Below are positions 3,396 through 37,005 of a DNA stretch of 49,839 nt, piece by piece. Positions within the stretch are counted from its first letter, which is position 1, and each line of letters starts with the position of its first letter. The notes under the pieces are model-generated. The model worked only from the letters and a program-made list of their open reading frames with translations, was not told the origin of the DNA and did no database searches. Made by a program: the position numbers and the translations under genes. Source of the stretch: Pseudobutyrivibrio ruminis (GTDB lineage Bacteria; Bacillota; Clostridia; Lachnospirales; Lachnospiraceae); the NCBI GenBank assembly GCA_015057305.1, contig SVES01000025.1, forward strand, positions 1 to 49,839, read 5' to 3'.

Positions 3396-3427
3396 GTTTC
3401 TCTCCTTTTAATAAATTACTTTAATCC

Positions 3428-3566
3428 GCCTGTGCCCCTAGTCTTTCAAGCTCCCGTAAGGCATCTCCCATACCTTCGCATGGGAGCCCTCCCGCCGGTG
3501 TAGGTCCTTCCCATGCTCGGCATGGTACCCCCTTACTCACGCTTGCCAACTTCACTTAACACAGGC
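3428..3566 (-). repeat. Structured dispersed element, copy A (about 139 bp)
   Basis: Read on the minus strand, the element is closed by GCCTGTG/CACAGGC. Inside it has the stems GTAAGG/CCTTAC, CCAT/ATGG and GCATGGGA/TCCCATGC. Conserved blocks include GCAAGCGTGAG, ATGCCGAGC and CTTACGGGAGC. Copy B at 35328-35464 has the same blocks and the same stems with different but still paired bases. It lies between purE and purM in the sense direction of the operon. No coding potential is evident. It could be a MITE-like mobile element or a structured RNA. Confidence 0.85.
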
Positions 3567-3625
3567 TCATTTAAATTTTTATAAATAAAAGGAAACCCTT
3601 GATTAAAGAGTTTCCTTCTACGTAT

Positions 3626-4153: not shown

Positions 4154-4239
4154 GCCAGTTACGGCAACAAGCATTAGTGTTTCTACGCTTCGCATAAGAA
4201 GCTTTGCTTAAGAAACCTAATAGCTTGTCGCCTACTGGC
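4154..4239. repeat. Long Y-shaped inverted repeat upstream of purE
   Basis: The left arm reads GCCAGT, GGCAACAAGC, ATTAG, GTTTCT and the right arm AGAAAC, CTAAT, GCTTGTCGCC, ACTGGC. These pair over about 28 bp with single bulges and one G-T pair. The apex holds two small hairpins, each with a three-base loop (plus strand TACGC-TTC-GCATA, and AAGC-TTT-GCTT), so the fold is a Y or T shape. It ends about 10 bp before the purE ribosome site. It could be a REP-like repeat or a leader structure. Confidence 0.8.
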
Positions 4240-33838: not shown

Positions 33839-35296
33839 TTAGAATAAACTCTTAACTGTTGGGTAAAGCTTCTTGAACTCCTGATATCTCTCTTCGTATT
33901 TACGAATTAATTCTGGGTCAGGCTCAACTGTAGTCTTAACCTTTACAAGCTTTTCGCAAGCCTCTTCTACTGATGCATACTCTCCGCATCCTACTGCTGC
34001 AAGGATAGCACCACCGAGTCCTGGGCCTTCCTCGTTTTCAAGAATATCAAGCTTAAGATTCATAACTGATGCTATAATCTGCTGCCATAATGGACTCTTT
34101 GCACCACCACCGCAAATCTTAGAACGTTCAATCACAATACCCTGGCTTCTAGCAACCTCAAGTGAATCACGAAGACCAAATGCAACACCTTCAAGCACTG
34201 CCTGAGTCATGTCCTCACGGGTTGTATCCATAGACATGCCAATAAACATAGCACGTGCATCTGGATTGTTGTGTGGGCTACGCTCTCCCATAAGGTATGG
34301 AAGATAGAATACACGATTCTCACCAAGATTCTTAATACCTGCTTGCTCAGCTGGATAATCCTTTGTCTTAAGGATTTCATCCATCCACCACTTATTGCAT
34401 GATGCAGCTGAAAGCATGCATCCCATAAGGTGATAGCCACCATCTGCATGATCAAATGAATGAAGTGCGTTAGCAGGGTCTACTGTAAAGTTTTTGCTTG
34501 AGATAAAGATTGTACCAGATGTACCAATTGAAAGATTGCACTTGCCCTCTCCAACTGTACCTGTACCAACAGCTGCTGCTGCATTATCACCTGCACCTGC
34601 AATAATCTTAACATCATTTGTAAATCCAAGCTCTGCGGCTACCTCTGGCTTAATAGTACCGACTACTTCGTAGCTTTCATAAAGCTTAGGAAGCTGAGAC
34701 TCTGAAACGTGGCAGATATCCATCATTTCCTTGCTCCAGCAACGATTCTTTACATCTAAAAGAAGCATGCCGCTGGCATCTGAATAATCTGTACAGAAGC
34801 TTCCAGAAAGCTTGTAAGCAATGTAATCCTTTGGAAGCATAATCTTTGCCACCTTTGCCCAAGCTTGCGGCTCATTTTCCTGCATCCAAAGAATCTTTGG
34901 AGCTGTGAAACCAGCAAATGCAATGTTTGCTGTATACTCTGACAACTTATCCTTACCGATAACATTGTTTAAGTAATCTGTTTCTTTACCTGTACGTCCA
35001 TCATTCCATAGAATCGCTGGACGAATAACATTGTCATCAGCATCAAGAGTAACCAGACCATGCATCTGACCGCCAAATGAAATACCTGCTACTAAAGTCT
35101 TATCTACCTCTGAAGTAAGCTCCTTCATACCAGCTACTACCTGAGTCCACCAATCCTCTGGCTTCTGCTCAGACCAGCCCGGATGTGGGAAGCTAAGTGC
35201 ATATTCTTTTGAAACAATTTTTGCAATCGTGCCATCCCCTGACATCAGGAGTAGCTTAACTGCAGAAGTTCCTAAATCAACTCCAATATAATACAT
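33839..35296 (-). CDS. xylB: Xylulokinase (FGGY family)
   Basis: This 485-residue sugar kinase phosphorylates D-xylulose to feed the pentose phosphate pathway. The N-terminal phosphate loop YIGVDLGTSAVKLLL, the substrate region SFGGQMHGLV and LWNDGRTGKE, and the C-terminal CGGGAKSPLWQQI are typical of XylB. A neighbouring isomerase of the fucose/arabinose family lies upstream, so the true ketose might not be xylulose. A structured repeat element fills most of the 181-bp gap before it. Confidence 0.92.
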   Translation of the reverse strand: MYYIGVDLGTSAVKLLLMSGDGTIAKIVSKEYALSFPHPGWSEQKPEDWWTQVVAGMKELTSEVDKTLVAGISFGGQMHGLVTLDADDNVIRPAILWNDGRTGKETDYLNNVIGKDKLSEYTANIAFAGFTAPKILWMQENEPQAWAKVAKIMLPKDYIAYKLSGSFCTDYSDASGMLLLDVKNRCWSKEMMDICHVSESQLPKLYESYEVVGTIKPEVAAELGFTNDVKIIAGAGDNAAAAVGTGTVGEGKCNLSIGTSGTIFISSKNFTVDPANALHSFDHADGGYHLMGCMLSAASCNKWWMDEILKTKDYPAEQAGIKNLGENRVFYLPYLMGERSPHNNPDARAMFIGMSMDTTREDMTQAVLEGVAFGLRDSLEVARSQGIVIERSKICGGGAKSPLWQQIIASVMNLKLDILENEEGPGLGGAILAAVGCGEYASVEEACEKLVKVKTTVEPDPELIRKYEERYQEFKKLYPTVKSLF

Positions 35297-35327
35297 AACT
35301 ATAATCTCCTATTCGTATAAATAAAAA

Positions 35328-35464
35328 GTGACTGACACATAACCTTAGCAAGCGCGAGCAGGGAAGTATCGTGCCGAGCTAGGAGGGAGCCGCGTAGCGG
35401 AAAGTTGCCTAGCTCGAGTACGAGGGGTGCCCTGCGGGAGCATGTAAAACTACGCGTCAGTCAC
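35328..35464 (+). repeat. Structured dispersed element, copy B (about 137 bp)
   Basis: On the plus strand this is closed by GTGACTGAC/GTCAGTCAC. Inner stems are GCAGGG/CCCTGC, TCGT/ACGA, CGAGCTAGG/CCTAGCTCG and CCGC-GTA-GCGG. The blocks GCAAGCGCGAG, GTGCCGAGC and CTGCGGGAGC match copy A (3428-3566 on the minus strand). It lies between xylB and the isomerase gene, opposite in sense to their transcription. No protein is encoded. Confidence 0.85.
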
Positions 35465-35477
35465 ATCTCAGTTTAAA

Positions 35478-36962
35478 TTATCTCCAAGGATTCTCTGTAG
35501 GGTAGCGTACGCCTGCAGGCTGGTTGTATCCGATTTCATCAACCTCTACTCCGATATACTTGAATACCTCATAGAGAGCCTTTCCGAAGTGTCCGAATGC
35601 AACAGCTCCGTGATGTGGGAATCCCTTTTCGATTAACCAGTGACGATAGAAGCGTCCCATCTCTGGAATAGCAAATACACCGATTGAACCGAATGACTTA
35701 GTTGCAACTGGAAGTACCTCGCCCTGTGCAATGTAAGCGCGAAGGATATTGTCAGCTGTAGACTGAAGTCTGTAGAATGTGATTTCGCCTGGTGCGATAT
35801 CTCCTTCAAGTGTACCATTTGTAACTTCAACAGGAAGTGTACGAGCCATAATCTTCTGATTCTTCATTTCACAGAAGGCAAGCTTCTTAGAGCATGTATT
35901 TCCGCAATGGAAGCCCATGAATGTATCCTGAAGTGTGTAATTTGTCTTATCCTTGATTTCCTCGTTGTACATATCCTTTGGTACTGAGTTGTTGATATCA
36001 AGAAGTGTAACAACATCCTCTGATACAACTGTACCGATAAATTCTGATAGACATCCGTAGATATCAACCTCGCAAGATACAGGGATTCCTTCACCTGTAA
36101 GACGAGAGTTTACATAGCAAGGAACGAAACCAAACTGTGTCTGGAATGCAGGCCAGCACTTGCCAGCGATTGCTACGTATTTACGATATCCTTTGTGATC
36201 TCTTACCCAATCCTTAAGTGTAAGCTCGTACTGAGCAAGCTTAGCAAGAACCTCTGGCTTCTTGTTTCCAGCGCCAAGTTCTTTTTCCATATCTGCAACA
36301 ACCTCTGGAATACGGCTGTCACCTTCATGCTTATTGAATGCTTCGAAAAGATCAAGCTCTGAGTTCTCCTCGATTTCAACACCAAGGTTGTAAAGCTGCT
36401 TGATTGGTGCATTACATGCAAGGAAGTTAAGTGGACGTGGTCCAAAGCTGATAATCTTAAGGTCTGAAAGTGCGATTACGGCACGAGCGATTGGCTCGAA
36501 CTCATGAATCATATCTGCACAATCCTCAGCATCTCCTACTGGATACTCTGGAATATAAGCCTTGATGTTACGAAGCTGTAAGTTGTAGCTTGCATTAAGC
36601 ATACCGCAGTAAGCATCTCCTCTGCCATCAAGAAGGCTGTTACCTGACTCCTCTGCTGCTGCTATAAACATCTTAGGTCCATCAAAATGCTTTGCAAGAA
36701 GTGTCTCAGAAATTTCTGGACCAAAATTTCCAAGGTAAACACAAAGTGCATTACATCCAGCTTTCTTAATATCCTCAAGAGCCTGTACCATGTGAATTTC
36801 GCTCTCTACGATACATACTGGGCACTCATAGATGTGCTCTGAACCATACTTCTTTGTATAGGCCTCAATAAGTGCCTTTCTTCTATTTACTGATAAGCTT
36901 TCTGGAAAGCAGTCACGTGAAACTGCTACTACACCAATTTTTACATTTGGCATATTGTTCAT
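35478..36962 (-). CDS. L-fucose/L-arabinose isomerase-family protein
   Basis: This 494-residue protein resembles the fucose/arabinose isomerase superfamily: an N-terminal Rossmann-like part (VKIGVVAVSRDCFPES, CVYLGNFGPE), a middle domain (CWPAFQTQFGFVPC, GIPVSCEVDIYG) and a C-terminal part with GFHCGNTC and PHHGAVAFGHFG that may supply metal ligands. It is neither XylA nor a standard AraA. Being paired with xylulokinase suggests an aldose-to-ketose step on a pentose. The ATG at 36962 follows AGGAGG; a longer start is open to 36992. Confidence 0.8.
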   Translation of the reverse strand: MNNMPNVKIGVVAVSRDCFPESLSVNRRKALIEAYTKKYGSEHIYECPVCIVESEIHMVQALEDIKKAGCNALCVYLGNFGPEISETLLAKHFDGPKMFIAAAEESGNSLLDGRGDAYCGMLNASYNLQLRNIKAYIPEYPVGDAEDCADMIHEFEPIARAVIALSDLKIISFGPRPLNFLACNAPIKQLYNLGVEIEENSELDLFEAFNKHEGDSRIPEVVADMEKELGAGNKKPEVLAKLAQYELTLKDWVRDHKGYRKYVAIAGKCWPAFQTQFGFVPCYVNSRLTGEGIPVSCEVDIYGCLSEFIGTVVSEDVVTLLDINNSVPKDMYNEEIKDKTNYTLQDTFMGFHCGNTCSKKLAFCEMKNQKIMARTLPVEVTNGTLEGDIAPGEITFYRLQSTADNILRAYIAQGEVLPVATKSFGSIGVFAIPEMGRFYRHWLIEKGFPHHGAVAFGHFGKALYEVFKYIGVEVDEIGYNQPAGVRYPTENPWR

Positions 36963-37005
36963 TGTCAAAATCCTCCTTTTACTAAAAACCACTCCAAAAA
37001 TTTTG

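Follow-up and report, generated by a model that had tools for sequence, protein, structure and literature searches.

The closest described kind of sequence to the elements reported here is that of the YPAL/RU-2-type palindromic elements, a likeness drawn from published descriptions rather than from comparison of sequences. The available portions of the work on Yersinia describe YPAL/RU-2 as ~168 bp long, intergenic, furnished with internal inverted repeats, and filled in one species at sites that are empty in another (PMC2229807); the element also figures in the available part of PMC2267715. Its targets span or adjoin regions of dyad symmetry and are duplicated over 3–26 bp (PMC2229807). The family described below, R1, shares with YPAL the intergenic palindromic form and the filled and empty sites. 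The hosts are unrelated, and whereas YPAL duplicates its target, no duplication was found in the linkers of R1; unlike YPAL as portrayed in these portions of the source, R1 copies each possess their own outer stem in a nearly fixed register (PMC2229807).

Other short repeats resemble R1 in part, as far as the accessible sections of the respective reports describe them. The GC clusters of yeast mitochondria are palindromic, merge and shuffle, and are flanked by short direct repeats, GC42 being 42 bases long (PMC4478555, PMC2800124). Like R1, these clusters and the repetitive hairpin elements of sponges are short hairpins with constrained stems and no named machinery, but they belong to organelles (PMC4478555, PMC2800124). 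The pneumococcal BOX, RUP, and SPRITE repeats are likewise bunched, inserted into each other, and in part terminator-like; the terminal inverted repeats of RUP resemble those of its proposed helper, IS630-Spn1, whereas the ends of R1 are its least conserved part (PMC10969869, PMC2229807). ISPsy8 is described as entering REP sequences where a predicted hairpin has its symmetry axis, much as R1 seems to lie in the loop of a hairpin at two sites; REP-inserting insertion sequences, however, are coding and have a defined REP target, whereas R1 is non-coding and its enclosing stems are unrelated in sequence (PMC1525189). Overlap of R1 with the 250 palindromic candidate RNAs from human microbiomes, as presented in the accessible part of that survey, is possible (PMC8040213).

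Two folded copies and their relatives in the genus

The window analyzed here is a stretch of 49,839 nucleotides of Pseudobutyrivibrio ruminis DNA. A preliminary description had proposed that it contains two copies of a structured element, one on each strand, in which four stems differ in sequence but remain paired. Both copies are present at the places and on the strands then given. Copy A (3428..3566, minus strand), delimited from sequence, alignment, and folding, comprises the element and a copy-specific outer stem; it lies between purE and purM and runs in the same direction as purM. Its core (3435..3552) matches the covariance model R1 with 113.4 bits, copy A being among the sequences used to build the model. 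The outer stem has its 5′ arm, GCCTGTG, at 3560..3566 and its 3′ arm, CACAGGC, at 3428..3434; a base motif, read like the arms directly from the sequence, is represented by TTTAAATGAGC on the 5′ side (3565..3575) and by GCGGATTAAA on the 3′ side (3420..3429), upstream of the purM ribosome-binding site, all on the minus strand. Copy B (35328..35464, plus strand), again the element with its outer stem, is antisense to both of its neighbors, which, from their protein sequences, we take to be a sugar isomerase gene (35478–36992, minus strand) and a kinase gene (33839–35296, minus strand). Its core (35342..35456, plus strand) scores 114.6 bits against R1, copy B also having contributed to the model, and the arms of its outer stem are GTGACTGAC (35328..35336) and GTCAGTCAC (35456..35464), both on the plus strand. 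Read in the operon direction, this stem is followed by a terminator-like run of five T's (35323..35327, minus strand).

The four stems are indeed paired in both copies: GCCTGTG/CACAGGC in copy A versus GTGACTGAC/GTCAGTCAC in copy B for the outer stem, GTAAGG/CCTTAC versus GCAGGG/CCCTGC, CCAT/ATGG versus TCGT/ACGA, and GCATGGGA/TCCCATGC versus CGAGCTAGG/CCTAGCTCG. The outermost stem calls for a refinement: instead of being one more conserved helix, it varies in sequence at nearly every locus. The alignment of the two copies, flanks included, contains 92 identical letter pairs of 161, and none of 200 dinucleotide shuffles folds as well as either strand of A or B (z −5.1 to −7.4). A 32-base pattern with up to three mismatches finds only copies A and B in the window and nothing in 100 shuffles, which, the pattern having been built from these two copies, indicates rarity and not independent support. 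Because two copies alone are thin evidence, the covariation test was extended to 113 aligned copies.

A and B are members of a family, apparently undescribed, of short intergenic elements that are non-coding and fold strongly. Model R1, a covariance model of 28 aligned copies, was searched against the genus with 127 candidates scored per genome. With E no higher than 1e-4, its 382 matches (table sum) are spread over 27 of 29 Pseudobutyrivibrio genomes, so related Lachnospiraceae do contain many copies. Numbers per genome range from 0 to 48: the genome of the window itself has 24, G010 has 48, G013 39, and G020 29, and G014 and G018 have none at this threshold. A pattern search allowing up to three mismatches located copies in 25 of the 29 genomes. 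Across 299 Lachnospiraceae genomes R1 matched three, two of Pseudobutyrivibrio and one of another genus (G062), the absences in this set being soft because stricter filters were applied and 12 candidates were scored per genome. The match in G062 is weak (E 3e-5; L037, 35–135, at a contig end) and retains CGCGAG-CAGGG...CCCTG-CGGGAG, including the CGCGAG/CGGGAG internal loop; the stretch looks like a possible diverged relative of the family. Among the matches listed in a database search (at least 80 records), 74 are from Pseudobutyrivibrio, two are from Butyrivibrio fibrisolvens 16/4, and four are from distant phyla and were taken as chance matches. No viral contig contained the exact family pattern, no phage matched copy B, and the single plasmid match (37 bases, E 0.009, a Cupriavidus plasmid) was also taken as chance. 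As far as searched, R1 is peculiar to Pseudobutyrivibrio, bar the one weak match in another genus, and searches of openly licensed PMC papers turned up no account of it.

Gene context was analyzed for 128 copies (134 matches minus the six weakest), whose matched cores are 102–190 bases long. Ninety-nine are clear of mechanical ORFs of at least 70 aa (overlap cut-off 40 bases), six overlap only the 5′ extension (the first ~14–31 codons) of a real gene whose Pfam domain begins past the element, and 23 overlap ORFs of 70–112 aa, none of the 22 scanned containing a Pfam domain. No gene, of the iscB type or any other, was seen in the 128 matched cores, although copies split by a long insert would escape the model. 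The copies run along both neighbors in 76 cases and against both in 28, lie between convergent genes in 11 and between divergent genes in 5, and have one neighbor unseen in 8. At L088, L067, L078, L079, L025, L089, and L092, two R1 matches stand 47–103 bases apart in divergent orientation (minus, then plus).

At curated thresholds, neither the R1 element nor eight further loci match any Rfam 15 family, and with many copies in related Lachnospiraceae this bears out the proposal of an undescribed, MITE-like structured family. At E up to 5, no Rfam family matches copy B or L010, and for copy A five matches fall below threshold (E 0.006 to 4.2). They are to microRNA, human lncRNA, and caiA families, those overlapping the element being to two lncRNA families (E 0.37 and 2.3); we take these sub-threshold matches as chance. 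HEARO/omega RNA, to which the element had been suggested to be related, does not turn up when copy A, copy B, and L010 are searched at this permissive threshold. HEARO/omega RNA is a structured mobile RNA, and R1 resembles it in being structured and probably mobile but has no Rfam match and no associated ORF was seen. Separately, CCATGCCGAGC suggested kinship with 5S rRNA, which was discarded when a search of the whole window against Rfam returned four tRNAs and no 5S.

A second structured family, R2 (~94 positions, GTAGCTATCAAGCTCTTAG...CTAAGGCTTGAGAGCGTAAC), uses the same sites and the same kind of private stem as R1. Its model, built from 36 copies, finds at least 1,678 matches (table sum) in 28 of the 29 genomes, a lower bound because 146 candidates were scored per genome. 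Loci carrying R2 have no Rfam match at curated thresholds, and a permissive Rfam search with one R2 copy returned sub-threshold microRNA matches only, likewise taken as chance.

A conserved core within a copy-specific stem

The core fold, aligned over 113 copies, consists of 21 pairs in three helices. In the alignment, 97.7% of cells are paired, compared with 86.9% in shuffles (0 of 500 reach this value); 13 pairs change on both sides (9.7 in shuffles; 1 of 500 reaches it), cells with changes on both sides number 241 (55.9; 0 of 500), and the covariation score is 0.381 (0.180; 0 of 500), figures that are not probabilities because related copies were used and aligned so as to fit the structure. 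Slid structures leave 30–44% of the same 113 copies' cells paired. The ratio of G-U to A-C in the core is 224:14, and 43:12 without three pairs that are often G-U. Since G-U stands far above A-C, the sense strand is the one that folds, either as RNA or as single-stranded DNA, which could look alike. Compensatory changes and tolerance of G-U on one strand, the marks of a structured RNA, are thus both found.

The unpaired bases of the core are conserved as well and are nearly invariant in the GCGYGAG and CGGGAGC internal loops. The tip of the core is variable; in L004, L029, L034, and L115 it contains 50–75 extra bases that read as further hairpins. Hairpin-like inserts of ~50–75 bases are also seen in L160, L164, L168, and L179, mostly at the tip and in some cases alike between copies. 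Such hairpin inserts within the element form a third level of nesting.

The outer stem encloses the core, from which ~11 bases separate it on either side; this spacing is nearly constant, the register shifting by a few bases. Of 102 non-orthologous loci, 100 form six or more Watson-Crick pairs over 8 positions in the best register, a level reached by 533 of 3000 combinations of arms from mixed loci. The mean is 7.4 Watson-Crick pairs of 8 for a locus's own arms versus 4.7 for arms from different loci. Among 100 loci there are 98 distinct outer stems. Mismatches comprise G-U and A-C at 12:3, plus 38 others, all small numbers. Beyond the stem, the base motif TGAG../..GCGGA or a similar one is found on both sides in a permissive search at 20 of the 102 loci, and copy A has one too. 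Of 94 loci with both neighbors classed, 10 have a T-run after the stem and 14 have an A-run, which is a T-run on the other strand, before it; thus most outer stems are not classical terminators.

The linkers between stem and core have a loose consensus (ACAYAAYCTWGG on the 5′ side, NAAAACTWGGA on the 3′ side) and show no excess of pairing with each other. Both resemble NCTWGG and were considered as a target-site duplication, which was rejected because the 7-base distance is 3.38 within copies and 3.38 between copies; this test covers the linkers only, and duplications elsewhere or eroded ones could remain. Conserved terminal inverted repeats of the MITE type were not found, the arms being inverted yet different in each copy, and, in contrast to a classical MITE, the element is least conserved at its ends. 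The family is nonetheless short, non-coding, dispersed, intergenic, and present in many copies, as MITEs are.

Filled and empty sites between related genomes

The R1 family behaves like a mobile element. Copies of equal length with core identity of at least 90% form 137 pairs, orthologs included, and among the pairs listed many stand at unrelated places. For instance, L106 and L107 of G020 have cores that are 99% identical and flanks that are 26–30% identical, with identity ending just outside the core. Sister species often lack the element at a given site, so that filled and empty sites occur between related genomes, as described for YPAL.

At the isomerase-kinase site, for which 27 of 29 rows were read, the element is present in 11, a plain stem-loop followed by T's in three (G003, G005, and G017), another repeat in nine, another hairpin in three, and none of these in one. 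The stem GTGACTGAC/GTCAGTCAC followed by T's encloses the element in antisense orientation in eight genomes and in sense orientation in G020; related stems enclose it in sense orientation in G015 and antisense in G011. Opposite orientations within one stem need not mean fresh insertion, as the loop could also have been inverted. The other repeat, GGCTTCCCC... ...CTGACTGATGAGG, occupies the site in G004, G006, G008, G010, G013, G021, G023, G024, and G026, and the GGCTTCCCC repeat often occurs with a partner, CCTCATCCACCGC....

The purM site was read at 26 of 28 loci. It holds the element in 15 (in G025 cut by the contig end), R2 in the same base motif in three, and neither in eight. The 14 outer stems with both arms in view differ and yet are paired, examples being GCTAGCAC/GTGCTAGC, GCTGACAC/GTGTCAGC, GCTAACACA/TGTGTTAGC, and GCCTGTG/CACAGGC.

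For nine other sites, the comparison covered between one and four of G002, G005, G019, and G027. At L114, G020 reads CTATTTGCA-element-TGTAAATAG followed by T's, and the corresponding stretch of G005 is a plain terminator of the form CTATTCACA-loop-TGTGAATAG, again with T's; G027 has R2 there, antisense and within another stem. At L107 the element of G020 lies in a hairpin beside a terminator, while G019 has the terminator only and G027 a terminator filled by R2. No such hairpin is present at L103, L106, L111, or L113 in any empty species shown. The first site of L131 has no hairpin in three species and another insert in G002; its second site has no hairpin in G005 and G019 and contains R2 in the same base motif in G027 and in another stem in G002. 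L132 has another insert in G002. Three G020 sites, compared in 8–10 species, contain no insert, R2, other inserts, or small hairpins, and the latter look like deletion remnants of R2. L108 is bare, without a hairpin, in 6 of 10 species at site 2 and in 4 of 10 at site 3. In terms of the dyad symmetry reported for YPAL targets, plain hairpins occur in other genomes at the isomerase-kinase site and L114, and none occurs in the empty species at six other sites. Because empty species have no hairpin at L103, L106, L111, L113, both sites of L131, and part of L108, hairpin loops do not emerge as the usual target. At L111 and L113, the filled site of G020 has a new purine-rich, ribosome-binding-like stretch (GGATTAGAGG; GGATTAAAGATTGGAG) beside the start codon, and the empty species (G005, G019, and G027) have a tight gene junction instead.

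Mobilization by a Y1 (IS200/IS605, RAYT) transposase or by a reverse transcriptase was considered and rejected, as neither gene tracks copy number. The Y1 transposase domain PF01797 occurs in 10 of the 29 genomes and is absent from G004, G006, G007, G010, and G023, which carry 18–48 copies (48 in G010, 28 in G023, and 26 in G004); repeat-carrying genomes thus do not consistently possess the Y1 partner that marks REP/RAYT systems. Reverse transcriptase (PF00078, RVT_1) occurs in 15 of 29 genomes, is absent from G004, G006, G007, and G020, and is present in copy-less G018.

Mobility and competing explanations

We favor the interpretation, at a probability of roughly 0.6, that R1 copies are non-coding, non-autonomous mobile elements of ~130–140 bases that end inside a palindrome and whose fold is conserved. 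The mobile unit would comprise the core (GCAAGCGYGAG...CGGGAGCAYG) and, on either side, a loosely conserved linker of ~11 bases. It would settle in an intergenic palindrome, its register there being nearly fixed, and element and palindrome would together form a single long hairpin. At both the isomerase-kinase site and L114 the palindrome seems to be an older terminator-like hairpin with the element in its loop, and it is at these two sites that terminator-like hairpins find support as landing places. Most of the other sites compared show no such hairpin in the empty species; there it may have come with the element, been made at insertion, or come earlier. We infer that the fold is kept because a putative trans-acting machinery recognizes the sense strand in the form of RNA or single-stranded DNA, and also because a hairpin within a hairpin would spare host terminators and ribosome-binding sites.

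A bolder extension, which we regard as tentative and rather doubtful, is that R1 and R2 represent nested structured mobile elements, forming two or more large families, whose movement depends on recognizing structure and not sequence. The element would enter or build a palindrome and so be left with a private stem around it at a nearly fixed register, the target staying unduplicated; the stem itself might be made at insertion by inverted copying of one flank. If true, such structure-guided nesting would constitute a new integration route.

Mobility is not the only process that would multiply a folded intergenic sequence. A cis-acting regulatory RNA of operons, in leader or inter-cistronic positions, could control translation or termination and be duplicated because it is useful. 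The 76 of 128 copies that run along both neighbors, many of them ≤~50 bases from the next start codon, are what such an RNA would show, as are the excess of G-U over A-C in the core (224:14) and the persistence of the element upstream of purM in 15 of 26 genomes with compensating outer stems. Against it, the identified neighbors are unrelated (for example tRNA synthetase, ABC transporter, sugar kinase, and purine synthesis), 28 copies are antisense to both neighbors and 11 lie between convergent genes, and the element is absent from related species, occurs in opposite orientations at one site, and varies from 0 to 48 copies. We judge this explanation unlikely for the family; the sense bias (76:28) and the long persistence at purM nevertheless also fit a regulatory role, above all at purM. 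Improbable, in our estimate, is a REP/BIME-like role, in which intergenic hairpins protect mRNA or end transcription and the core sequence matters little. Operon and convergent settings and the outer stems that in some cases run on into T-runs would suit it, but the near-invariant internal-loop bases (GCGYGAG and CGGGAGC) exceed the needs of a simple stabilizing hairpin.

Template-switch repair is known to perfect quasi-palindromes, and mutation of this kind alone, without selection on structure, might produce outer stems as near perfect and as copy-specific as those seen here. This would predict equal numbers of G-T and A-C mismatches, however, and the core shows 224:14 (43:12 without the three often-G-U pairs); the outer stems show 12:3 besides 38 other mismatches, which are small numbers, and unpaired core bases are conserved too. 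Mutation alone is thus a very improbable source of the fold. A kinship of R1, as an ORF-less form, with HEARO/omega RNA or IS200/IS605-type elements, which comes to mind because mobile structured RNA elements are familiar there, is largely refuted and scarcely credible, given that the Rfam searches found no HEARO and that Y1, present in 10 of 29 genomes, is missing from G010, G023, and G004.

As an abundant family in a common rumen and gut genus, the mobile elements proposed here supply natural presence/absence data on the spread of gene-less palindromic elements. The private stem in nearly fixed register, together with both orientations in one terminator-like hairpin, makes targeting of folded nucleic acid directly testable, and the R1 and R2 covariance models are able to annotate the whole genus.

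Two further features of the window lie near copy A. A terminator-like hairpin, AGGAAACTC...GGGTTTCCT followed by TTTTATTT (3582–3616, minus strand), stands between purE and copy A, and an R2 copy, located by an approximate pattern match, is found at the 5′ side of purE (4158..4234, minus strand).
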